64,000 nucleotides of DNA from Corallococcus sp. AS-1-6. Its GTDB lineage: Bacteria > Myxococcota > Myxococcia > Myxococcales > Myxococcaceae. Shown here one piece after another: positions 12,100 through 54,061 of this stretch (its first letter is position 1; every line of letters begins with the position of its first letter). The DNA lies in NCBI RefSeq assembly GCF_020037015.1, contig NZ_JAIQDE010000002.1, positions 124,001-188,000 on the forward strand, in the 5' to 3' direction. The notes below the pieces were generated by a model. The model saw only the letters and a program-made list of their open reading frames with translations, did not search any database and had not been told where the DNA came from. The position numbers were made by a program, and so were the translations under genes.

Positions 12100-12151
12100 G
12101 GACGTCTCCCAGGTGCGTGGACGGGCGCGGGCTGCGACACTGCCCGCGCCC

Positions 12152-13255
12152 ATGCTCCCCTCCTTCGTGGCCCTGCTCGGGCTCGGCCTGAGCGCCGCGC
12201 CCCCGCCCTCCCCTCCTTCCGCGCCCGCGGTGCTCCATACGCAGTGCCGCGCGCACGCGGCGGATCCCTCCAGGCCCTGGGCGCTCGCGCACGGCATGGA
12301 CCTGGACGGGAAGGCGTTCCGCGCGCGGGACGGCCGCCCGGCCTCGGACGCCATCGTCGCGGGGTTCCTGCGCCGCGACGCCCCGGACGCGGGGGGCGCG
12401 GCCCGCTACTTCTTCGACGCCTTCACCCCGGACGGCACGCCCGTGGAGCCCCACCCGGCGCTCCAGGTGAAGACGTTCCTGCTCGCGGGCTACCCGCGCT
12501 CGCAGGCGTTCCCCGCCGCGTGGGGAAAGGTGACGCTGCGGGAGCTGGTGGCGTCGCTCCAGCACGACTTCCGCCCCGCGCTCGCCACTTCGCCGGACGG
12601 AGCGTGGGCGCTGGACGCGCTGTCCCACGTGCTGGAGCCCGGGGGCGCGTTCGTCAACGGCGCGGGTGAGACGGTGCGCATGGACGCGGTGATGGACGCC
12701 GCGCTCGCCACGCTGGAGTCCGCGAACGCGGAGCTGAGGCGGGGCATGAAGGCGGGCCTCCCCCAGGTGCCCAAGAACAAGCAGGGCATCTACGCGCACC
12801 CGTGTGGCGGGCTCCACTTCTTCCAGGCCGTCGCGGGCTGGGCGCGCTTCCCCGCCGTGCGCAAGGCCTGGGGCGCGCGGCTGGACGCGCAGGTGGACGT
12901 GCTGGTGTACCGGCAGGGCTCGGAGGCGAAGCAGTACGAGGCCGCCCTCACCGCCGCGCCCGCGTACCGCGTCCCGGTGCTGGTGCAGATGGTGAAGTTC
13001 CACGGCCACTTCCTGGAGGCGCTGGGGCGCTACCGGGACGAGACGGGCTGGAAGCCCACGCCCGCGCAGGCCCGGGCGGTGGCGGAGGCGAAGGCCGCGC
13101 TGGAGCACGCCACGCTGAGGCTGGAGGCCACGGGCGCCTTCCGCGACACGGAGGCGCTGGCCAGGACGCAGCCCCAGCTCGCCCTGGACCTGGTGGGCGA
13201 TGCGTGCCACGCGGCGCGCGGGTGGGACCTGTGGGCCTCCACGAAGGCCCGTTGA
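12152..13255 (+). CDS. secreted protein of unknown function
   Basis: About 367 residues. The start at 12152 (MLPSFVALLGLGLSAAPPP) gives a convincing Sec signal peptide, whereas the longer frame from 12113 adds an Arg-rich leader. The mature part is mostly helical, with two notable conserved-looking stretches, GIYAHPCGGLHFFQAVAGWARFP and VLVQMVKFHGHFLEALGRYRDETGW. Both are rich in His and aromatic residues and could be an active or ligand site. A C-terminal Cys (VGDACHAARGWDLW) may pair with the Cys near the N-terminus. I recognise no family. The stop lies within an inverted repeat shared with the convergent acyl-AMP ligase gene. Confidence 0.7.
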   Translation: MLPSFVALLGLGLSAAPPPSPPSAPAVLHTQCRAHAADPSRPWALAHGMDLDGKAFRARDGRPASDAIVAGFLRRDAPDAGGAARYFFDAFTPDGTPVEPHPALQVKTFLLAGYPRSQAFPAAWGKVTLRELVASLQHDFRPALATSPDGAWALDALSHVLEPGGAFVNGAGETVRMDAVMDAALATLESANAELRRGMKAGLPQVPKNKQGIYAHPCGGLHFFQAVAGWARFPAVRKAWGARLDAQVDVLVYRQGSEAKQYEAALTAAPAYRVPVLVQMVKFHGHFLEALGRYRDETGWKPTPAQARAVAEAKAALEHATLRLEATGAFRDTEALARTQPQLALDLVGDACHAARGWDLWASTKAR

Positions 13256-13264
13256 GCCCCGGGC

Positions 13265-15016
13265 TCAGGGCCCGTCCTGACGCCGGCCCCCCGGCTTGAG
13301 CCGCTGGAGGCCCGCGGTGAGCGCCGCCTTCCCGGAGGCCATCCACCGCCGGCCCCGCTGCCGCGCGACCATCACGGAGCCCAGCACGAGCCGCTGCGCG
13401 CGCATCTGGAGCAGGTCCGCCCTCAGCTCCATGGGCGTCACGGTGCGGATGCGGCCCTGCTCGTAGGCCTCCGTGATGGCGCGGCGCTGGAGCTTGCCGC
13501 TGCTCGTCTTCTGGAGCTGGCCGTAGCGGATGAAGAGGACGTCCTCCTGCGCGAGCGTCACGCCCACCGTCTCCAGCACCGACTGACAGACCTGCTTGCG
13601 GCTGGCCTCCAGGCGCTCCAGCGCGGACGGGTGGTTCACCTCCGCCAGCACCACGAGGCGCCCCTTCACCTGGATGACGGCGGTGCGCCCCGGGCGGATG
13701 AAGGCCAGCCGCTCCACGGCCTGCTCGAAGTCCGCGGAGAAGAAGCTCTGGCCGTTCACCTTGATGCGGTCGTTGATGCGCCCGGTGATGAAGAGCTCGC
13801 CCTCCTTCTGGAAGCCCAGGTCGCCCGTGGCGTAGAAGCCGTCCTCGCCGCGCAGGGGCCGGTCATCCAGGAAGTACGACGGCGCCAGGCTGCCGCCGCG
13901 CAGCTCGATTTCGCCCATCTCGCCCTCGCCGCACGGCCGGCCGTCCTCGGCGCGCAGCCGCACCTCGAACTCCGTCAGCGGGCGGCCCACGGAGATGGCC
14001 GGCTGGCCGTTGGGCGCGGTGATGACGCGCACCGTCTGGCGCGGCGGCACGCTCGCGACCATCAGCACCGTCTCCGCCATGCCGTAGCAGGGCATGAACA
14101 CGTCGCGCCGCAGGCCGCACGGGGCGAGGATCTCCAGGAACTGCTCCAGGTTGGGGATGTTGATGGGCTCGCTGCCCAGGTAGATGCTCTGCACGCGCGA
14201 CAGGTCCAGCCGCTTCAAATCTTCCGCGTCCGCCGACTTGAGCGACTTGAGCGCGTAGTCGATGGCGAAGTTGGGGATGACGGAGCCCATCACCTTCTCG
14301 GAGGAGATGAGCTCCAGCCAGCCCAGCGGGTCCATCAGGAACGACGCGGGCTGGGACAGCAGCAGGTCATTGCCCACCGTGATGCAGGTGAGCAGCCCGC
14401 CGATGAGCCCCATGTCGTGGTAGAGCGGCAGCCAGCTCGTCACCCGGTCCTCGGCCGTGCGGCCGTCGTGCCGGATGATCATCCGCAGGTTCGCGGCCAG
14501 GTTCTCGTGGGTGATGGGCACGCCCTTGGGGAACGACGTGGACCCCGACGAGAACTGCACGAACGCCAGCTCCTCCGGCGCCACCTCGCGCAGCTTCGCT
14601 CCCGGACGCTTCGCGCCCGCGGGCGGCGGCGGCAGGCGCTCCAGGGGCAGCTCCAGGCCGGCCAGGCTGGGCACGTCCAGCACGAGCTGCGCGCCGTAGC
14701 GCTCGCGGATGCGCCCGAGGAACTCCCGGTAGGGCCCCTTCGGCGTGCTCAGGATGTACGGCTTCACGGACAGGGGCACCGCGCCCAGCTCCATCAGCGC
14801 CAGGAAGGCGAAGATGACGGACGAGGAGGTCTCGAAGGGCAGCACCACGCGCGTGCCCGGCGCCACGCCGCGCGCGCGGAAGTGCTCCGCCGCCCCGGCC
14901 ACCCGGGAGGCGAACTCCCGGTAGGGCACGAACTCCGGCGGCCCGACGAAGTCGTCGTAGAGAAACAGGCCGCGCCGCGGGTCCACCGCCTCCAACCGCT
15001 GGATGATGTCGAGCAT
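13265..15016 (-). CDS. fatty-acyl-AMP ligase (AMP-dependent synthetase family)
   Basis: A 583-residue adenylate-forming enzyme. Core motifs are FVQFSSGSTSFPKGVPITHEN (P-loop), SWLPLYHDMGLIGG (the hallmark of fatty-acyl-AMP ligases and related acyl-ACP loaders), CYGMAETVL (motif A5), ATGDLGF, GRINDRIKVNGQ and the C-terminal lysine motif KTSSGKLQR. The LPLYHDMGL signature argues for loading onto an ACP rather than CoA. The ATG at 15016 is preceded by GGAGGGGAGG; the longer frame to 15082 overlaps the previous gene and is rejected. It is the last gene of the six-gene lipid operon that carries its own ACP and phosphopantetheinyl transferase. A basic C-terminal tail of about 30 residues follows the AMP-binding C-domain. 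Confidence 0.9.
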   Translation of the reverse strand: MLDIIQRLEAVDPRRGLFLYDDFVGPPEFVPYREFASRVAGAAEHFRARGVAPGTRVVLPFETSSSVIFAFLALMELGAVPLSVKPYILSTPKGPYREFLGRIRERYGAQLVLDVPSLAGLELPLERLPPPPAGAKRPGAKLREVAPEELAFVQFSSGSTSFPKGVPITHENLAANLRMIIRHDGRTAEDRVTSWLPLYHDMGLIGGLLTCITVGNDLLLSQPASFLMDPLGWLELISSEKVMGSVIPNFAIDYALKSLKSADAEDLKRLDLSRVQSIYLGSEPINIPNLEQFLEILAPCGLRRDVFMPCYGMAETVLMVASVPPRQTVRVITAPNGQPAISVGRPLTEFEVRLRAEDGRPCGEGEMGEIELRGGSLAPSYFLDDRPLRGEDGFYATGDLGFQKEGELFITGRINDRIKVNGQSFFSADFEQAVERLAFIRPGRTAVIQVKGRLVVLAEVNHPSALERLEASRKQVCQSVLETVGVTLAQEDVLFIRYGQLQKTSSGKLQRRAITEAYEQGRIRTVTPMELRADLLQMRAQRLVLGSVMVARQRGRRWMASGKAALTAGLQRLKPGGRRQDGP

Positions 15017-15041
15017 GTGAAAAGCCTCCCCTCCGGGTTCT

Positions 15042-15959
15042 TCAGTGCGCGGGCGCCACCTGGCGCATCCACGCGAGCACACGGGGCAGCACCTCCGCGC
15101 GGGCGCGCTCTCCGCGCACCACGTCGAAGTGGCCCGCGTCCCAGCTCAGCCCCTGCGCGCGCCCCAGCACGGCCAGCTCCTTGCGGGTGCCGCCCAGGTG
15201 GGCCACCAGCTTCTCCACGCGCATCGGTGACGCATGGAACAGGTCCGCCGCGCCCACGCCCGCGAACACCGGCAGCGTCACGTCGCGCAGCGCGCTCCAG
15301 TAGTTCGTCGCGCCGTCCGCGCTGCGGAACGCGCCCGTGGGCGCCCAGTCCGTGAACTGCCGCATCACGCCCGCCGGTTCGTCCCAGGGCCCCTGCTTCA
15401 GCGCCTTCGCCGGGAAGCGCCCCAGCAGCCCCGCCAGCGCGGCCGAGAAGCCCAGTTGGAAGCGCTTCTTGAACCCGCCGTCGCTGTAGTCGTTCACCGC
15501 CGAGGACAGCGTGCACACGCCAGACACCGCGGCCTGGAGCGAGGGGTCCACCCCCAGGGCCGCCAGCGCCGCGTAGCCCGCCATGCTGTGGGCCAGCAGG
15601 AACAGCGGCCCGGTGTGCCGCGCGCGCACGGCCCGCACCAGGTCCGGGATGTCGTGGCGCACGTACGTGTCGAAGCTCCAGTCGTACGCGCGCTTCGCGG
15701 GCCAGCGGCTCTTGCCGTGCCCGCGCAGGGACGCGACGTAGGCCACGCAGCCCGCGTCCACGAACGTGCGCGCGGCCCCGTCACCCTGCGCGCCCAGGAA
15801 GAAGCGGCCGTCGGAGAACAGCCCCGGCACGAAGAGCACGCCGGGCGCGGAGTCCCGTGTCCCGGACAGGCGCGCCTCCACGACGTGCAGCGCGTGCTCC
15901 TGGGACGTGGGCACCCAGAACTCCAGGGACGCGAGCTCCGGCTTCGCGTTCGTGCTCAT
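15042..15959 (-). CDS. alpha/beta hydrolase
   Basis: A 305-residue alpha/beta-hydrolase-fold protein. The nucleophile elbow is AHSMAG (near residue 110), the oxyanion-side HGxx equivalent reads VPGLFSDGRFF, and the acid and His are probably D in GAADLFHAS and H in WDAGHFDVV, completing a Ser-Asp-His triad. The ATG at 15959 overlaps the stop of the upstream thioesterase gene by four bases (ATGA). No signal peptide is seen, so it is probably cytoplasmic. In this operon it may hydrolyse or transfer the acyl product; an esterase or acyltransferase role cannot be distinguished from sequence. Confidence 0.85.
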   Translation of the reverse strand: MSTNAKPELASLEFWVPTSQEHALHVVEARLSGTRDSAPGVLFVPGLFSDGRFFLGAQGDGAARTFVDAGCVAYVASLRGHGKSRWPAKRAYDWSFDTYVRHDIPDLVRAVRARHTGPLFLLAHSMAGYAALAALGVDPSLQAAVSGVCTLSSAVNDYSDGGFKKRFQLGFSAALAGLLGRFPAKALKQGPWDEPAGVMRQFTDWAPTGAFRSADGATNYWSALRDVTLPVFAGVGAADLFHASPMRVEKLVAHLGGTRKELAVLGRAQGLSWDAGHFDVVRGERARAEVLPRVLAWMRQVAPAH

Positions 15960-16402
15960 GGGCGCGGATCCTCCACGGGGGCCGCCGGGGCGCGCGCGGC
16001 GGCCAGGAACTGCTGCAGCGACGCGAGCGACCGCTCCCGCGCGTCCAGGAAGGCCACGCTCACCAGCGCCTCCACCGCCACCGGCCCGTCCGCCGCCAGG
16101 AACACGCGCTGCCGGAAGCGCGCGCGGTAGTTGAGGCCGTCCTCCTCCAGCTCGTCCGCCGCGGGTGACTCCAGCTCCGTGTGCACCACCACGTCGCCCG
16201 GGGGAATCTCGCGGCGGTAGTCCACCTCCACGCGCGACACCACGGCCACCACCGTCCCCCCGCGCGTCAGCCCCTGCCGCTCCAGCCAGGCCCAACGGCC
16301 GGCCTCCAGGTACTCCAGCGTGGTGGCGTTGTTCACGTGCCCCAGGGTGTCCAGGTCGTTGGGGCGCACGCGCAGCGTCAGGGACGACTCTTCGAAGTGC
16401 AC
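15956..16402 (-). CDS. acyl thioesterase (4HBT/YbgC-like hot-dog fold)
   Basis: A 148-residue hot-dog-fold protein. VRPNDLDTLGHVNNATTLEYLEAGR carries the catalytic Asp and the HVNN...YLE pattern of the FadM/YbgC-type thioesterases. VEVDYRREIPPGDVVVHTELE is the usual central strand pair. Such enzymes hydrolyse acyl-CoA or acyl-ACP. It starts 40 bp after the AcpS gene and its stop overlaps the ATG of the alpha/beta hydrolase, so it is within the operon. Its likely role here is release of the finished acyl chain from the dedicated ACP (inference). Confidence 0.87.
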   Translation of the reverse strand: MHFEESSLTLRVRPNDLDTLGHVNNATTLEYLEAGRWAWLERQGLTRGGTVVAVVSRVEVDYRREIPPGDVVVHTELESPAADELEEDGLNYRARFRQRVFLAADGPVAVEALVSVAFLDARERSLASLQQFLAAARAPAAPVEDPRP

Positions 16403-16441
16403 GGGGGGATGTCCTTCTGGCTGCCGGGGGGGACAGCGACT

Positions 16442-16807
16442 TCAGGGAGACGGAGCGCGCGTCACGATGACCACCGTCGAGACGAACCCTCCGCTATGTG
16501 ACAGCGAGACAGCGACCTGCAGGGCCTCGCGCGCCAGGTGCGCCGCGAGCGTGCCGTGAAACCGGAAGCGCGGCGCGTGCCGGGCGTCGTGGACGAGCTC
16601 CGCGTCCGTCCAGAACCAGCCGGCGACCGCGGGCAGCGCCTTGAAGAGGGCCTCCTTCGCGCTGAAGCCCGCCGCCAGGCTCTGCAGCGGATCCGCCGCG
16701 CGCTCGAAGTGGGCGAGCTCCGCGGCGGTGAAGAAGACGTCCGGCTCCCGCAGGGCCCGCGCGGCCTCCAGCTCCGAGATGGCCTGGAGGTCGTGGCCCA
16801 GGCCCAT
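16442..16807 (-). CDS. acpS: holo-[acyl-carrier-protein] synthase, AcpS type
   Basis: A 121-residue 4'-phosphopantetheinyl transferase. The Mg-binding Asp is D6 in GLGHDLQAI, and the second motif FSAKEALFKAL holds E52 and K56, matching the WxxKEAxxKA signature of AcpS. The ATG shares its A with the TGA of the desaturase gene (TGATG), so the two are translationally coupled. Housekeeping acpS usually lies beside pdxJ, rnc or era. Its position here, within an operon containing an ACP, suggests a dedicated copy that activates that carrier by attaching phosphopantetheine to its serine. Confidence 0.88.
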   Translation of the reverse strand: MGLGHDLQAISELEAARALREPDVFFTAAELAHFERAADPLQSLAAGFSAKEALFKALPAVAGWFWTDAELVHDARHAPRFRFHGTLAAHLAREALQVAVSLSHSGGFVSTVVIVTRAPSP

Positions 16808-17766
16808 CAGCACCCGACGAGGTCCATCCAGGTGTCCTCCACCTCCTCGCGCGACGCCACCGTGATGCCGGTGATGCGCTTGAGGGCGTGGAAGATGAGC
16901 TGCTCCTTCTTGCGCAGCGCGTCCGGCGCGTAGAAGCCCTCGCGGTGCTCCAACTGATCCCACCAGTTGACGTGGGTGTCGCGGCTCTCCACGCGCTCGC
17001 GCTTGCTGCCGTGCACCTCGCCGCCGTCGCGCAGGAACAGGTGCGCCACCGCGAACGCCTCCTTGGCCTTGTAGGCGCCGCTGTCCACCAGCGCCTTGGC
17101 GAAGGCGATGAAGTAGTTCATGTGCTGCACTTCGTCCGCGGCCACCTGCTTGAACAGCGCGCGCAGGCCCGGGTCCTGGACCCTCTGCGAGCACTGGCCG
17201 TAGTCCACCGCCGCCACCACCTCGGAGATGGCCAGCAGCGTGAGCGTGCGCAGCATGTCGTCGTCGGGGAAGACCTTGCGGAACTCGATGAAGGTGGCGT
17301 CGCTGACGGGCTCCAGCTTCAGCACCGAGGACAGGCGGTTGAACGCCGTCTCGTGGTGCGCCTCCTCCTCGTTCCAGTAGCGGCTCCACGTGCCGCACGC
17401 CTGCATGATGGCGGCGACGGTGGGGTTCTTCTCCTGCCACCGGCGGCACTCTCCGTCCGCCAGCCGCTCCAGCCGGTCCGCGCCCGGCTTCGTCGTCAGC
17501 TCCGCCCGCCCCGCGTTCCACACCAGGTGCCGGTCGGCTTCACCCACCTGTGTGGAGTCCACGTGGGAGAGCATCTCCACCACGCTCCAGCGCCGCGACT
17601 CGTGCAGGCGCTGCTGCTCCCAGGTGACGTCCACCAGCGACATGCCCCGCTGGGTGAGCGCTTCGTACAGCTCCGCCAGGATGGCCGGGCGGCCTTCGCC
17701 CGGAGGAGCCTTGGAGGGGACGCCAGTCGCTTCTTCGTGTTCGAGGCTGCGCGCCAGGACGCTCAT
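16807..17766 (-). CDS. soluble acyl-ACP desaturase (ferritin-like di-iron protein)
   Basis: A 319-residue ferritin-like protein. The paired iron ligands are clear: EEAHH (E135, H138), matching EENRH, and AADEVQH (E212, H215), matching AADEKRH of plant stearoyl-ACP desaturases. A further helix Glu lies in AISEVVAA (E182). This spacing and the AADE motif favour the acyl-ACP desaturase branch over ribonucleotide reductase R2 or AurF-type N-oxygenases, though oxygenase or hydroxylase chemistry is possible. The start overlaps the stop of the ACP gene by four bases. The expected substrate is an acyl chain on the neighbouring ACP; it needs an electron donor that is not encoded here. Confidence 0.82.
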   Translation of the reverse strand: MSVLARSLEHEEATGVPSKAPPGEGRPAILAELYEALTQRGMSLVDVTWEQQRLHESRRWSVVEMLSHVDSTQVGEADRHLVWNAGRAELTTKPGADRLERLADGECRRWQEKNPTVAAIMQACGTWSRYWNEEEAHHETAFNRLSSVLKLEPVSDATFIEFRKVFPDDDMLRTLTLLAISEVVAAVDYGQCSQRVQDPGLRALFKQVAADEVQHMNYFIAFAKALVDSGAYKAKEAFAVAHLFLRDGGEVHGSKRERVESRDTHVNWWDQLEHREGFYAPDALRKKEQLIFHALKRITGITVASREEVEDTWMDLVGC

Positions 17767-18059
17767 GCCGACTTCCGCTCCGGGTCCGTGACTTCACCCA
17801 TGAAGACCGCCAGGACCTGCGACACCGGTGTATCCAGGGACAGTGCCGGCAGGCGGACCCGCAGTCCAAAATCCTTGCGCAGCCCGTTGGACGTGCGGGC
17901 AAAGGCCTCCATCAGGTCCACGCTGTTGGTCATGCGCTCGGAGCGCGTGATCAGCGCCGCGAGCGAGAGATCCTCGGCGAACAACTCCTCCTCCGTGAGA
18001 CCCACGTTTTCTGCGAACTTCCGGCGGATGTATGACTCGAGCTCCTGCGCGTCGGGCAC
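17763..18059 (-). CDS. acyl carrier protein of the lipid operon
   Basis: With a GTG start at 18059 the protein has 98 residues, the usual ACP size. The carrier motif reads TNSVDLMEAF, with S46 as the phosphopantetheine site (DSL in canonical ACPs, so the Asp is replaced by Asn). GGAAGGAAGG precedes the GTG. A longer frame beginning TTG at 18143 is rejected because that TTG is part of a TTGACA promoter hexamer. The stop overlaps the desaturase ATG (ATGA). It is the first gene of the operon ACP, desaturase, AcpS, thioesterase, hydrolase, acyl-AMP ligase. The tail after the fourth helix is short and charged. Confidence 0.83.
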   Translation of the reverse strand: MPDAQELESYIRRKFAENVGLTEEELFAEDLSLAALITRSERMTNSVDLMEAFARTSNGLRKDFGLRVRLPALSLDTPVSQVLAVFMGEVTDPERKSA

Positions 18060-18115
18060 GGGGGACCTTCCTTCCCAGGGCTTGAAAGTCGATTTTCCAG
18101 TCAGAAAACAGGAAA

Positions 18116-18143
18116 GATCTAACTGTGGCCCCGGAGCTGTCAA
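18116..18143 (-). promoter_or_regulatory. candidate promoter of the ACP/desaturase operon
   Basis: On the minus strand TTGACA (18143-18138) is followed after 16 bases by TAGATC (18121-18116). The -35 is perfect and the -10 is weak but lies in the only AT-rich patch between the CaiB-type gene and the ACP gene. The leader to the GTG at 18059 would be about 50 bases. Confidence 0.45.
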
Positions 18144-18207: not shown

Positions 18208-19386
18208 TCATGCAAGCAGGCGCGAGATTTCCTCGGCCGTGAAACCCGCGTCTTCCAGGATGACGCGTGAGTGTTGTCCCAGCGTGGGCGGTGGACGCAG
18301 TGCGACGTCGCCCATGCGCAGCGGCGTGAGCAGGTGTGTCACGCGGATGCCGCGCTGCGCATCGTCCGCGTCCACGAAGAGGCCGCGCGCGCGCAACTGC
18401 GGATCCGCGAGCACCTCGTCGCCCTCCGCCACCGGCTCCACGCAGAACTCCGGGCCGGAGAGCTGCTCACGCCAGTGCGCCAGGGGCTGGCTCGCGAGGA
18501 TGCGGGCGAGCTCCGCCTTCACGCGCGCGCCGTCCTCGCCCCCTGAGTACGCGTCATCCAGCAGCTCCGGGCGGCCCAGCTTCGCGCAGAGTGCGCCGAA
18601 GAACTTGGGCTCCAGCGCGCCCACCGCGAGCCAGCGGTCGTCCGCGGTGCGGTACAGGCCATAGCTGGGGTAGCCGCCGTTGAGCGGCTCGCTCCCTCGC
18701 TGGAGCGGCGTGCCCTCCTGCCCCATGAACAGGCGCGAGGCCAGGTGCAGGTGGAGGAAGGCCAGCGCGCCGTCCGTCATGGACACGTCCACGAAGCGGC
18801 CCACGCCGGTGCGCTGGCGCTCGTGCAGCGCGGCCAGGATGCCCACCAGCGCGAAGAGGCTGCCCCCGCCGATGTCCGCCATCTGCACGCCCGGGAACGC
18901 GGGCGCGCCGCCGGCTTCGCCGCCGTAGCCCAGCAGGCCCGCGCGGGCCACGTAGTTGAGGTCGTGCCCCGCCTTGAGCCGGTCCGGCCCCGTCTGGCCG
19001 TAGCCGGAGATGGCGCAGTAGATGAGCCGCGGGTTCTTCTGGCGCAGCACCGCCTCGCCCACGCCCAGCTTGTCCATGACGCCGGGGCGGAAGCTCTCCA
19101 CCAGCACGTCGTAGTGGGCCACGAGGCGCAGGAGCGCGTCACGCCCCTCGGGCGTCTTGAGGTTCAGCGCGAGCGAGCGCTTGTTGCGGTGCAGCCCGTA
19201 GTAGAGCGCGCCCTCTCCGTCGCGGTGCGGCGGCATGTGGCGGGTGGCGTCCCCCACGTCCGGGTCCTCCACCGTGTCCACGGTGGCGCCCAGGTCCGCG
19301 AGCACCAGCGTCGCGTACGGGCCGGGCAGCAGGCGTGACAGGTCCAGCACCCGCAGGCCCGCGAGGGGGGCAGACGGCTCAGGCAT
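18208..19386 (-). CDS. CaiB/BaiF family CoA transferase (possible alpha-methylacyl-CoA racemase)
   Basis: A 392-residue family III CoA-transferase. The start at 19386 (MPEPSAPLAGLRVLDLSRLLPGP) fits the conserved family N-terminus, with GGAG upstream. The catalytic Asp is in GVQMADIGGGSLFALVG, and DVLVESFRPGVMDKLG, ISGYGQTGP and NKRSLALNLKTPEGR are family signatures. Members either exchange CoA between acids or, without transfer, epimerise 2-methylacyl-CoA. The racemase subgroup (AMACR) is about this length and shares the NKRSLALNLK segment, so racemase activity is plausible. The SCP2 gene lies upstream on the same strand, separated by a strong hairpin. Confidence 0.9.
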   Translation of the reverse strand: MPEPSAPLAGLRVLDLSRLLPGPYATLVLADLGATVDTVEDPDVGDATRHMPPHRDGEGALYYGLHRNKRSLALNLKTPEGRDALLRLVAHYDVLVESFRPGVMDKLGVGEAVLRQKNPRLIYCAISGYGQTGPDRLKAGHDLNYVARAGLLGYGGEAGGAPAFPGVQMADIGGGSLFALVGILAALHERQRTGVGRFVDVSMTDGALAFLHLHLASRLFMGQEGTPLQRGSEPLNGGYPSYGLYRTADDRWLAVGALEPKFFGALCAKLGRPELLDDAYSGGEDGARVKAELARILASQPLAHWREQLSGPEFCVEPVAEGDEVLADPQLRARGLFVDADDAQRGIRVTHLLTPLRMGDVALRPPPTLGQHSRVILEDAGFTAEEISRLLA

Positions 19387-19423
19387 GAAAACGGGGCTCC
19401 AGGGGGGAGGTGGAGACATGCAG

Positions 19424-51469: not shown

Positions 51470-52546
51470 GTGCCTTCTGTCCTGCTCGACTTGAGAATGG
51501 TGCGCGGTCAGCTCCACGGCATCGCGAGGTACGCGCTGGAGCTGGCGCGCCGGCTGCCCGCTCTGGCCCCGGACCTGGAGTTCTCCGCGCTGGTGCCGGC
51601 GAAGGGCCTGCCAGACGACCTGGGCGAGCTGACGCCAAGGATTCCGCTGCACCGCTCCAGGGCCGGCTACCTGTCCCCGACAGAGCAGCCGCTGCTGGCG
51701 TATGAGCTGACGAAGCTGAAGCCGGACCTGTTCCACGCGACGTCGTTCTCGTTGCCGCTGTTCTGGCCGGGAAGGTTGGTGGCCACGTTGCATGACGCGA
51801 ACCACCTGGCGCTGGCGGACCAGTACACGCCGGTGCAGGCCATCTATTACAAGGCCGTGGTGGGCCCGCGGGCGCGGCTGGCGACTGCTCTCATTACCGT
51901 GTCTGACTTCTCCCGTGAGGAGCTGGGGAAGTACCTGAAGATGTCGCCGTACCGGTTCCAGGTGATCCACAACGGCGTGGATTCGCGGTTCGAGCCGCCT
52001 ACTGCGAGTGCGGCGAAGGCGTTCCGGGAGCGGCACGAGTTGCCGGAGCGGTACATCGCGGTGGTGGGCAACGCGAAGCCGTTCAAGAACCTGGCGATGC
52101 TGGGCAAGTTCGCGCCGGACCTGCCGGTGCCGCTGGTGCTACTCGCGGGCAAGGGTGCGGTGGCGCACGAGACGGGGCTCCACGAGAACGTCATCGATCT
52201 GGAGCAACTGCCCGAGTCGGAGATGCCGTTGTTCTACGGCGCCGCCACGGCGCTGCTTTTGCCGTCGAAGTACGAAGGCTTTGGACTGCCTGCACTTGAA
52301 GCCATGGCGTCCGGATGCCCGGTAATCGCGGCAGACACATCAGCGTTGCCAGAAGTTGTAGGTGGTGCTGCGATACGACTAGCGCCTGACGACTCAAATT
52401 TATGGCGGGAGGCTACTCTACGAATTCTGAGGGATGGTAATCTCCGCCAAGAACTAAAGGACCTAGGCAGGCAGCGCGCAGCACGTTTCAACTGGGAGGC
52501 CTGCTCTCTACAAACGCTAGGAGTATTTAGACGCGCCCTTCGATAG
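51470..52546 (+). CDS. glycosyltransferase family 4 with a compositional break
   Basis: 358 residues from a GTG. GT4 features are LFHATSFSLPLFWPGRLVATLHDANHL, ITVSDFSREELGKYLKMSPYRFQVIHNGVDSRF and SKYEGFGLPALEAMASGCPVIAADTSALPEVVGGAA, with E-x7-E. The first three quarters use high-GC codons. From about 52310 the codons change to ATA, CTA, TTA, CGA and AAT, and the end reads like low-GC DNA into the ParA gene. The protein is nevertheless complete and ends at the normal place for the family. The C-terminus may have been replaced by recombination with incoming DNA. Confidence 0.88.
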   Translation: MPSVLLDLRMVRGQLHGIARYALELARRLPALAPDLEFSALVPAKGLPDDLGELTPRIPLHRSRAGYLSPTEQPLLAYELTKLKPDLFHATSFSLPLFWPGRLVATLHDANHLALADQYTPVQAIYYKAVVGPRARLATALITVSDFSREELGKYLKMSPYRFQVIHNGVDSRFEPPTASAAKAFRERHELPERYIAVVGNAKPFKNLAMLGKFAPDLPVPLVLLAGKGAVAHETGLHENVIDLEQLPESEMPLFYGAATALLLPSKYEGFGLPALEAMASGCPVIAADTSALPEVVGGAAIRLAPDDSNLWREATLRILRDGNLRQELKDLGRQRAARFNWEACSLQTLGVFRRALR

Positions 52547-52605
52547 CTCCGACTCCATGGCCACAGAAACAAGCCAAATCAACCAAAAAAACACAGCCCC
52601 TCACT

Positions 52606-53727
52606 ATGAAAACCTCAAAATCAAAATCACCAACCCCGAAAATCATCTCCATCTTCAACAACAAGGGAGGAGTCGGGAAGTCCACGATCTGCTGGAATCT
52701 TGCGGACGCCCTTGGACAAGAGGGGAAGAAAGTCCTGCTGATTGATTTCGATCCGCAGTGCAATCTCTCAATAGCAATGCTTGGCGAAACAACCTTCGTC
52801 AAAACACTACCAACTCAAAACGCCCCCTACGGAACGACCATCCGTTCATTCCTGCAGCGATTCTTGCAAAACACTGGTGGCGAATCAATTTCCCTACACA
52901 AGGGACCACATACAAGCAAAAACGTTCACCTCATAGCTGGCGACTTCTGGCTAAACGTCTACGCAGACTCCCTCAATGTCGGTGCCGACCTGCTAACTGG
53001 CACAGGACTAACCAGATACGTAGCCTTGCGACGAATTGTGGCCAAAGCGACCGAGGCAGCAAAGACCGATTTCGACTACGTCCTTGTTGACCTACCCCCT
53101 TCGTTCGGCGCTCTCGTTCGAGCATCATTCTACTCTTCAGACTACTACATCGTCCCGTGCACCTCGGACAACTTTAGCGTTTATTGCGTGGGACTAATTG
53201 GACAGATGGTGCCAGCATTTGTGGGTGACTGGCAAATAGGCTTGAATAGGTTCAAGGCGACCAATCCACATTTCCACGACTTTGACACGCTAGGAAAGCC
53301 AGTTTTCGCAGGCTGGGTGTTCAATGGTTTTGACACCGCTCGGCGACGGAGAACCAAGGAAGAAATCAACATTGGATTGCCGACTGGCGACAAGCAAATG
53401 GTCCAAGCAGACCGGACCATGCATGATCGTGTCGCCACCGCAATCCGAGATGACCTTGTCGGCTCACTGACCAAGAACATTCAGGGATTCAATCCAATAG
53501 CACAAAGCGTTCCCGATAATTACCGAATCGGAGACACCGAAGATGCAAATGTCCTGATTCAAAACAGCCTCTGGCTAAACGTCCCAATTGGCAGGCTTGA
53601 CAAATTCGAACAGGTCGTAAGCCTGCAAGACAGAAGAAGTTGGGCCGCAAATCAAGTGGAGCAGATCGCCTTGCTCCGCAGCAAATTCGCCGAGATGGCG
53701 GCGCACGTCATAAGCGTCTGCGCATAA
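52606..53727 (+). CDS. orphan ParA/MinD-type ATPase in a low-GC patch
   Basis: 373 residues. The deviant Walker A is FNNKGGVGKST (signature K20, catalytic K25), followed by LLIDFDPQCNLS (switch I/A') and YVLVDLPPSFGALV (Walker B). This is the ParA family used for plasmid or protein partition, and also found in SMC-like, defence and BcsQ-type systems. It is longer than chromosomal ParA (about 250-290) because of an insert and a C-terminal extension. No ParB, parS or toxin gene is adjacent. Codon use is clearly AT-rich compared with every neighbour. The ATG has no strong ribosome binding site; the overlapping frame from 52557 is a shadow. Likely horizontally acquired. Confidence 0.85.
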   Translation: MKTSKSKSPTPKIISIFNNKGGVGKSTICWNLADALGQEGKKVLLIDFDPQCNLSIAMLGETTFVKTLPTQNAPYGTTIRSFLQRFLQNTGGESISLHKGPHTSKNVHLIAGDFWLNVYADSLNVGADLLTGTGLTRYVALRRIVAKATEAAKTDFDYVLVDLPPSFGALVRASFYSSDYYIVPCTSDNFSVYCVGLIGQMVPAFVGDWQIGLNRFKATNPHFHDFDTLGKPVFAGWVFNGFDTARRRRTKEEINIGLPTGDKQMVQADRTMHDRVATAIRDDLVGSLTKNIQGFNPIAQSVPDNYRIGDTEDANVLIQNSLWLNVPIGRLDKFEQVVSLQDRRSWAANQVEQIALLRSKFAEMAAHVISVCA

Positions 53728-54061
53728 GCCGTCTACTCCAGGATGCGGTTGGCGTGGTCACGGAGTCTGACGTCCATGGGGGACAAGCAATAGACTCTCC
53801 CAAGAAGCCGCAGTAGGCCATCATCCGAGCCTTCCATAAGAGGGCTCGGCATACAGGCAGACTCCGCACCTGTTTAACATTGGATAGGCAACGATCAGCC
53901 AGGTTCTGCGGATGTATCGAGAGAACGGAGGAGTAATCCTCCCACCCCGCGGAGACAGCAACTGACAGCGAAACTCAAGCATCTTGCCATTTATATTAAA
54001 CAGGATCGCCTCGGCGGAAATCAGGCTTAGATCTCCGGCACGCAAAACCTTCTGTTCCTCA
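53728..54061. other. low-GC intergenic stretch after the ParA gene
   Basis: 334 bp without a convincing gene. It holds a 7-bp hairpin, CCGAGCC/GGCTCGG at 53825-53831 and 53843-53849, which may end the ParA transcript though it lacks a U-tract, and an AT-rich TTTATATTAAA stretch (about 53990-54000) that could contain the patatin promoter. Composition is still below the genome average. Confidence 0.4.

Follow-up and report, generated by a model that had tools for sequence, protein, structure and literature searches.

A rare gene cassette of Corallococcus and other bacteria that probably oxidizes fatty acids on a private carrier protein

What is the role of six tightly packed myxobacterial genes that, taken together, resemble a line for activating, modifying and releasing a fatty acid? 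The question is raised by an operon on the minus strand (18059 to 13265) of a 64,000-nucleotide stretch of the 9.5-Mb genome of Corallococcus sp. AS-1-6 (contig NZ_JAIQDE010000002.1, positions 124,001 to 188,000; hereafter the window), which encodes, in this order, an acyl carrier protein (ACP), a ferritin-like di-iron oxidase (DES), an AcpS-type phosphopantetheinyl transferase, a thioesterase (TE), an alpha/beta hydrolase (ABH) and a fatty acyl-AMP ligase (FAAL). An earlier note, made from the window alone, had proposed a six-gene unit that loads, desaturates and releases a fatty acid. The answer given here, built on the parts, their order and conservation, their all-or-none presence, the pairing of ACP and oxidase and their carriage on plasmids, all read from sequence, is that the operon is probably one copy of a mobile, self-contained acyl-oxidation cassette, with a free fatty acid going in and an oxidized fatty acid coming out; this cassette is a larger entity than the local operon described earlier. 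The features of the locus are as follows.

17763..18059, minus strand: ACP, private acyl carrier protein, 98 aa; GTG start at 18059, motif NS(V/I)DLME with the putative phosphopantetheine serine, Ser46
16807..17766, minus strand: DES, 319 aa, ferritin-like di-iron oxidase distantly related to soluble acyl-ACP desaturases; PF03405 below cut-off, conserved putative ligands, predicted fold
16442..16807, minus strand: AcpS-type 4'-phosphopantetheinyl transferase, 121 aa; PF01648
15956..16402, minus strand: TE, hot-dog (4HBT) thioesterase, 148 aa; PF13279
15042..15959, minus strand: ABH, alpha/beta hydrolase, optional accessory, 305 aa; PF12146
13265..15016, minus strand: FAAL, fatty acyl-AMP ligase, 583 aa; PF00501 and PF23024
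18116..18143, minus strand: promoter-like element, TTGACA at 18143-18138, a spacing of 16 nt and TAGATC at 18121-18116; seen in the same-genus alignment
18208..19419, minus strand: left flank, CoA-transferase family III gene, outside the cassette; PF02515
12113..13255, plus strand: right flank, protein of 380 aa without a family, outside the cassette; no Pfam or NCBIfam match

The coordinates bear out the order and the single strand claimed for the six genes, and the overlapping starts and stops that had been pointed out are present too, as ATGA at the ACP/DES and TE/ABH junctions and TGATG at the DES/AcpS junction. They are kept in the same genus, where the two ATGA overlaps are of 4 bases in 8/8 measured loci and the DES/AcpS overlap is of 1 base in 7/8 (in L056 it is of 7 bases, through start choice). 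The start of the ACP gene has to be moved: position 18143, which the earlier note read as a TTG start codon, is instead where a conserved TTGACA begins, and the same-genus orthologues begin at the position of GTG 18059. TTGACAGC and a TAG 16 bases further on are identical in all the aligned same-genus sequences (13/13; 13 of the 14 at hand were aligned, with L031 left out), and TTGACAGC was not found in four empty sites described below (L117-L120). A generic promoter scan did not report the operon start, despite the conserved element in the alignment.

AcpS, TE, ABH and FAAL are recognized by curated profiles. AcpS scores 41.5 bits against PF01648 (cut-off 25) and keeps the motifs GHD and KEAxFK in all 22 aligned rows, so that the inactive AcpS named beforehand as a reason to abandon the proposal was not encountered. 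TE scores 60.9 bits against PF13279 (cut-off 25.5) and ABH 43.2 bits against PF12146 (cut-off 27; scanned from residue 9 onward), with the nucleophile motif LAHSM in 12/12 rows of the latter. The FAAL gene passes the cut-offs of both PF00501 and PF23024, and its best PDB relatives, at 190-198 bits, include 3pbk (Fatty Acyl-Adenylate Ligase), while the CoA ligase FadD-1 (3g7s) scores 82.5; 7r7e (“Polyketide synthase”) and some entries named “Acyl-CoA synthase” we also read as FAALs. By these scores the ligase is closer to FAALs than to CoA ligases, in agreement with the acyl-AMP ligase first proposed.

The identities of ACP and DES, neither of which has a Pfam match at E 0.001 or an NCBIfam match at E 0.01, rest on family-wide conservation and on predicted folds. 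In the ACP, NS(V/I)DLME with an invariant Ser46 is found in 29/29 rows chosen for alignment, and in the AlphaFold model (predicted local distance difference test, pLDDT, 88.7) Ser46 is the first residue of a helix spanning 46-64; in known ACPs, the modified serine begins a long helix. The best PDB structural alignments of this model are mostly with carrier proteins, which fill nearly all of the list at Z 6-8, and a Foldseek search with it gave no match at E ≤ 0.001. Since a gene for AcpS adjoins, a carrier role is the one suggested for this protein, which is annotated as a hypothetical protein on all three plasmids that carry the cassette. In DES, E89, E135xxH138 and E182 are kept in 26/26 aligned members and E212xxH215 in 25/26, being lost in L086, which comes from a metagenome assembly and has a deletion at this point; by analogy we take these six residues (pattern E..ExxH..E..ExxH) to be di-iron ligands. 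The best PDB sequence match of the DES profile is DesA2 of Mycobacterium (E 5.8e-5), with like residues of which five of the six putative ligands align, E89 lying outside the alignment. Foldseek with the DES model (pLDDT 86.7) returned plant acyl-ACP desaturase chains in its first 16 places, the best at E 2.2e-3 and none at or below 0.001.

The same set of genes recurs far beyond Corallococcus. When 84,980 species' genomes were scanned, 75 stretches gave matches, and 39 of them encode relatives, in 36 loci belonging to Myxococcaceae together with Hyalangium, Streptomyces, Saccharothrix ST-888, Frankia, Catellatospora, Nostoc and other cyanobacteria, and one deltaproteobacterial metagenome-assembled genome. 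By tblastn with the window proteins, DES is present in 36 of these loci, TE in 35, ACP and FAAL in 34 each, AcpS in 31 and ABH in 17 (FAAL matches below 40% identity were excluded, and contig ends or broken frames interrupt some loci). The hydrolase, present in the window and counted by the earlier note among six parts of one unit, is thus better described as optional. The detected genes are co-stranded in 36/36 loci and keep their order in 35/36, with FAAL coming first in L086; the full six-gene order is seen in 15/36 and the five-gene order without ABH in 12/36. Such regularity indicates that the arrangement is not due to chance, and the poor conservation of order that the earlier note had listed as a point against itself was not seen across the four phyla; order and strand are retained in Myxococcota, Actinomycetota and Cyanobacteriota as well as on the Xenorhabdus plasmid described below.

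The cassette is also carried by plasmids, with the oxidase found in 3 of 72,556 plasmid records, two from Nostoc (typed conjugative) and one from Xenorhabdus (typed non-mobilizable); phage records gave no match. The Nostoc plasmid annotation lists a hypothetical protein (the ACP), an acyl-ACP desaturase, a holo-ACP synthase, an acyl-CoA thioesterase and an AMP-binding protein. The Xenorhabdus plasmid has ACP, DES, TE, ABH and FAAL with order and strand kept, and a weak, unannotated AcpS match stands in the expected place (L159:9900-10157, E 2.5e-5), perhaps a decayed gene. In three Nostoc loci (L160:5936-8124, L161:5545-8079 and L074:5002-7516), the genes immediately upstream of the cassette are one for a site-specific integrase and two hypothetical ones.

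Within large groups the cassette is rare. In the cyanobacterial class at least 3 of 388 genomes have a match, and in the genus to which Streptomyces sp. NBS 14/10 belongs at least 9 of 392, three of the latter above 570 bits, five at 219-234 and one at 52; both counts are lower bounds, with at most five candidates per genome scored. A second Streptomyces subfamily (L152-L156), whose DES is 35-38% identical to that of the window, has the order ACP-DES-AcpS-TE-FAAL in 5/5 loci and ACPs with NSIDL in the four frames that were read (L155 is outside this count). In L152, Pfam matches place beside the subfamily-2 cassette an MDMPI_N protein, an aminotransferase, an alpha/beta hydrolase, an FMN dehydrogenase, an AMP ligase and a second phosphopantetheinyl transferase. 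A third, distant arrangement (L157:7133-10528), whose genes are shared in part by L039, has a ferritin-like protein, a PP-binding ACP and a FAAL in a row, and its ferritin-like protein is over the cut-off for FA_desaturase_2 (PF03405) and under that for AurF.

Among 96 genomes searched in the family Myxococcaceae, 28 gave matches, 24 of them strong and 4 weak. The strong ones fall in Corallococcus (14/16 genomes) and in the groups g16 (7/7), g18 (2/2) and g15 (1/1), and two of the four weak ones among 27 genomes of group g41. All six genes are held by 13 of the 14 strong same-genus copies, the window included; the other, in G013, has no ABH, and its FAAL frame (L035:5871-8801) lacks the expected stop and reaches a length of 976 codons, overlapping the adjacent gene in antisense. 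Two copies are present in one genome (G030), of which just one is at the common site. The site was fetched in six genomes without the cassette (G012, G014, G088, G091, G063 and G072). In the first four, two from Corallococcus (G012, G014) and two from g41 (G088, G091), the flanking genes adjoin at 23-118 bases from each other (L117-L120), and these clean empty sites indicate that the cassette is gained or lost whole; G063 and G072 (L121, L122) show no empty site, because the right-flank gene has other neighbors there. A functional tie between the cassette and its myxobacterial flanks (CoA transferase, two-component genes, RND pump) was considered and rejected, as these flanks stay together without it in L117-L120. 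The 380-aa right-flank protein (12113-13255) was present in 13/13 Myxococcaceae genomes searched.

How closely the parts have travelled together can be judged from their distances and from the loci with two oxidases. Pairwise distances of ACP, DES, AcpS, TE and FAAL rise together, with Spearman coefficients of 0.75-0.91 over 210-300 pairs from up to 25 chosen loci, shared ancestry not being controlled. In a DES tree of 46 rows, built by a quick method with SH-aLRT supports, the phyla form blocks, with the actinobacteria separate and the cyanobacteria, together with the metagenome-assembled genome, nested beside the myxobacterial types; several branches are weak. The blocks suggest few transfers between phyla, followed by local descent and loss. 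Tandem ACP-DES-ACP-DES arrangements occur in Hyalangium and in G076. The two Hyalangium ACPs are 58% identical to each other, A being 80% identical to that of L036 and B 82% to that of L087, and oxidases of type A and of type B are each accompanied by their own type of ACP, the tandem loci included. In one metagenome-assembled genome (L067, L087), an ACP-DES pair stands in a stretch that has no other cassette genes, and a five-gene cassette is found on another contig. This pairing of types and the lone pair are the best indication that the oxidase may act on its own ACP.

The series of reactions that we infer for the cassette, its specificity for the ACP and its product included, would run as follows. 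AcpS, or a transferase of the host, would arm the private ACP, and the FAAL would adenylate a free fatty acid and load it onto the same ACP, as FAALs are known to load ACPs. The di-iron enzyme, which would act on its own partner ACP specifically, would then oxidize the chain, most likely by introducing a double bond, with O2 and with electrons drawn from the host; in plants, acyl-ACP desaturases rely on ferredoxin. TE would free the product, and the optional ABH may supply the substrate or process the product, which could, as a matter of speculation, be a lipid signal. No ketosynthase was found in the window cassette or among the shared neighbors scanned, which accords with the earlier description of a unit that tailors chains rather than building them. 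The private ACP with its own AcpS, the FAAL-type ligase, the di-iron oxidase and the thioesterase are likewise the components to be expected of the self-contained unit that had been claimed.

Several results weigh against this reading of a self-contained acyl-oxidation cassette. The PP-binding profile matches 0/23 ACP members at E ≤ 1, the ACP has no match among PDB sequences, hhalign finds none between it and the PP-binding ACP of L157, and, given that the protein is small and helical, its fold scores are modest. The window DES scores 18.2 bits (E 0.0012) against FA_desaturase_2 and, being under the curated cut-off of 22.7, is treated here as a distant relative and not filed as a PF03405 member. 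In VIA-align comparisons with the DES model, R2-like oxidases (R2lox, Z 16.5) tie with the ivy (16.6) and castor (16.4) acyl-ACP desaturases. AcpS is missing from three Frankia loci, one Streptomyces locus and several Myxococcaceae copies, and is therefore not essential to the cassette; of the dedicated AcpS and ACP seen in the earlier note, the window does have its own AcpS adjoining the private ACP, a feature that is not universal among the copies. The cross-phylum comparison of neighbors (long open reading frames only, eleven loci) found no redox partner, transporter or regulator common to all loci. Finally, compared with six relatives, each of the six genes has a ratio of nonsynonymous to synonymous substitutions under 1 (0.06-0.50, by a simple method and in the presence of strong codon bias), which supports function but no particular one.

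Part of these results bears on whether the cassette is as described and its di-iron enzyme performs some other chemistry, such as hydroxylation, C-C cleavage to an alkane or alkene, N-oxygenation or acetylenation, an alternative that we consider unlikely and yet deserving of weight. The fold comparison is compatible with it, Z being close for the desaturases, the R2-like oxidases, the aldehyde-deformylating Kitasatospora protein 60 (15.6) and the azoxy synthase VlmB (15.5), and lower for cADO (14.0). At E ≤ 0.01, Rubrerythrin matches 17 of 26 DES members, the window included, and its best E-value is better than that of FA_desaturase_2, which matches 24 (the window DES itself reaches 19.2 bits with Rubrerythrin at a looser limit, below cut-off); the outlying relative in L157 matches AurF, as said, below cut-off. 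On the other hand, the best solved relative of the DES profile is DesA2, two cyanobacterial DES relatives reach the PF03405 cut-off (25.2 bits, and 22.9 with neighboring pieces), and partnership with an ACP fits, on established knowledge, acyl-ACP desaturases best. What was first called an acyl-ACP desaturase thus holds, on ligands and fold, as a ferritin-like di-iron oxidase, an identification that is well supported; a desaturase in the strict sense is not, because the fold score is tied with R2-like oxidases and near to others and the sequence score is under the cut-off. Desaturation would still be the likeliest chemistry.

It is somewhat less likely again that the oxidized acyl-ACP is passed to another pathway (a nonribosomal peptide synthetase, an acyltransferase or a ligase), with TE editing only misloaded chains. 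Neighbors that could receive it do exist in places. Five actinobacterial copies (L062, L063, L064, L066 and L070) have a common further block beside the cassette, which by Pfam comprises in L064 an acyl-CoA dehydrogenase-like protein, a 278-aa protein without a family, a ThiS-like protein of 88 aa ending in GG, an AMP ligase and an MFS transporter, and which possibly serves sulfur incorporation. Not far from the Xenorhabdus copy, with transposase genes intervening, are a 6.1-kb AMP-binding gene, a deformylase and a methyltransferase, and subfamily 2 stands beside the aminotransferase, FMN dehydrogenase and AMP ligase already mentioned. However, no such partner is common across the phyla in the eleven loci compared by their long open reading frames, four myxobacterial genomes keep the same flanks without the cassette, and TE is retained in all but one of the 36 loci, as a releasing step would predict.

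That the genes form an ordinary fatty-acid housekeeping operon is very improbable and was rejected: most of the enzyme classes are common, but the cassette is rare in cyanobacteria and Streptomyces, cleanly absent from relatives with empty sites and carried on plasmids, and the window genome has elsewhere two other PF01648 matches and 13 matches to the membrane-desaturase profile PF00487 (at least two of them perhaps one gene in pieces), with no other PF03405 match at E ≤ 0.01. Elsewhere in the window, the GC content falls to 0.54 in the step 52001-54000 (the remaining 2-kb steps are at 0.65-0.77), at a ParA/AAA_31-like gene (52606-53727) ahead of a patatin-like gene.

If the preferred reading of an acyl-oxidation cassette is right, a portable lipid-oxidizing kit has been overlooked because its ACP matches no carrier profile and its oxidase lies at or under the desaturase cut-off. 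It would be a small, testable enzyme set, offering, alongside membrane desaturases and CylC halogenases, a further di-metal route by which fatty acids loaded by a FAAL undergo C-H activation, and the NS(V/I)DLME ACP together with the DES family would give gene-cluster finders a signature. No description of the cassette was found in the open literature searched; subscription journals and preprints were outside its scope, and novelty is not thereby proven.

Among known systems, the soluble acyl-ACP desaturases (castor and ivy stearoyl-ACP desaturase, Mycobacterium DesA2) share with DES the ferritin-like fold and the E..ExxH..E..ExxH pattern; DES differs from them in its 10-19% identity in structural alignment, its score under the Pfam cut-off and its fixed partnership with an ACP and a FAAL. 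PF00487, which we take to be equivalent to IPR005804, has no match in the cassette DES. As far as the portions available of the published accounts go, the jamABC alkyne cassette consists of a FAAL, a desaturase and an ACP, to which the polyyne core adds a thioesterase, and a survey detected the desaturase as IPR005804 and the ACP as IPR009081 (PMC8406139, PMC9579380 for the composition; PMC8406139 for the survey). The likeness to jamABC and to the polyyne clusters (cepacin, caryoynencin, protegencin) lies in the combination of FAAL, desaturase and ACP, with TE in the polyyne clusters, and in the spread over several phyla. By contrast, and within the same limits of those accounts, the Corallococcus-type oxidase is ferritin-like, its ACP has no PP-binding match, an AcpS of its own is present and there is usually one oxidase (one DES in the window locus, two in that of Hyalangium); for the first two reasons, a scan with IPR005804 and IPR009081 should miss the cassette. 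Two further systems are set apart here by their descriptions, as far as these were available. Clusters with CylC-type dimetal-carboxylate halogenases resemble the cassette in that a cyanobacterial dimetal enzyme has a FAAL and an ACP as neighbors, whereas the type I polyketide synthase clusters described have a polyketide synthase downstream and the cassette has none (PMC8406957); AFC-BC11 has a FAAL and putative acyl-ACP desaturases in a different cluster (PMC12186527). Judged as a member of the jamABC/polyyne group, the cassette has the FAAL and has neither the membrane desaturase nor the PP-binding ACP; as a working analogy, the comparison with jamABC stands. Tentatively, and as a proposal that we put short of probable, the cassette may be a second, independently assembled counterpart of jamABC, mobile on chromosomes and plasmids (two typed conjugative) in four phyla, with a cryptic ACP and a ferritin-like oxidase family of its own, making for competition or symbiosis a fatty acid not yet seen, be it an alkene, a diene, an alkyne or another oxidized chain.

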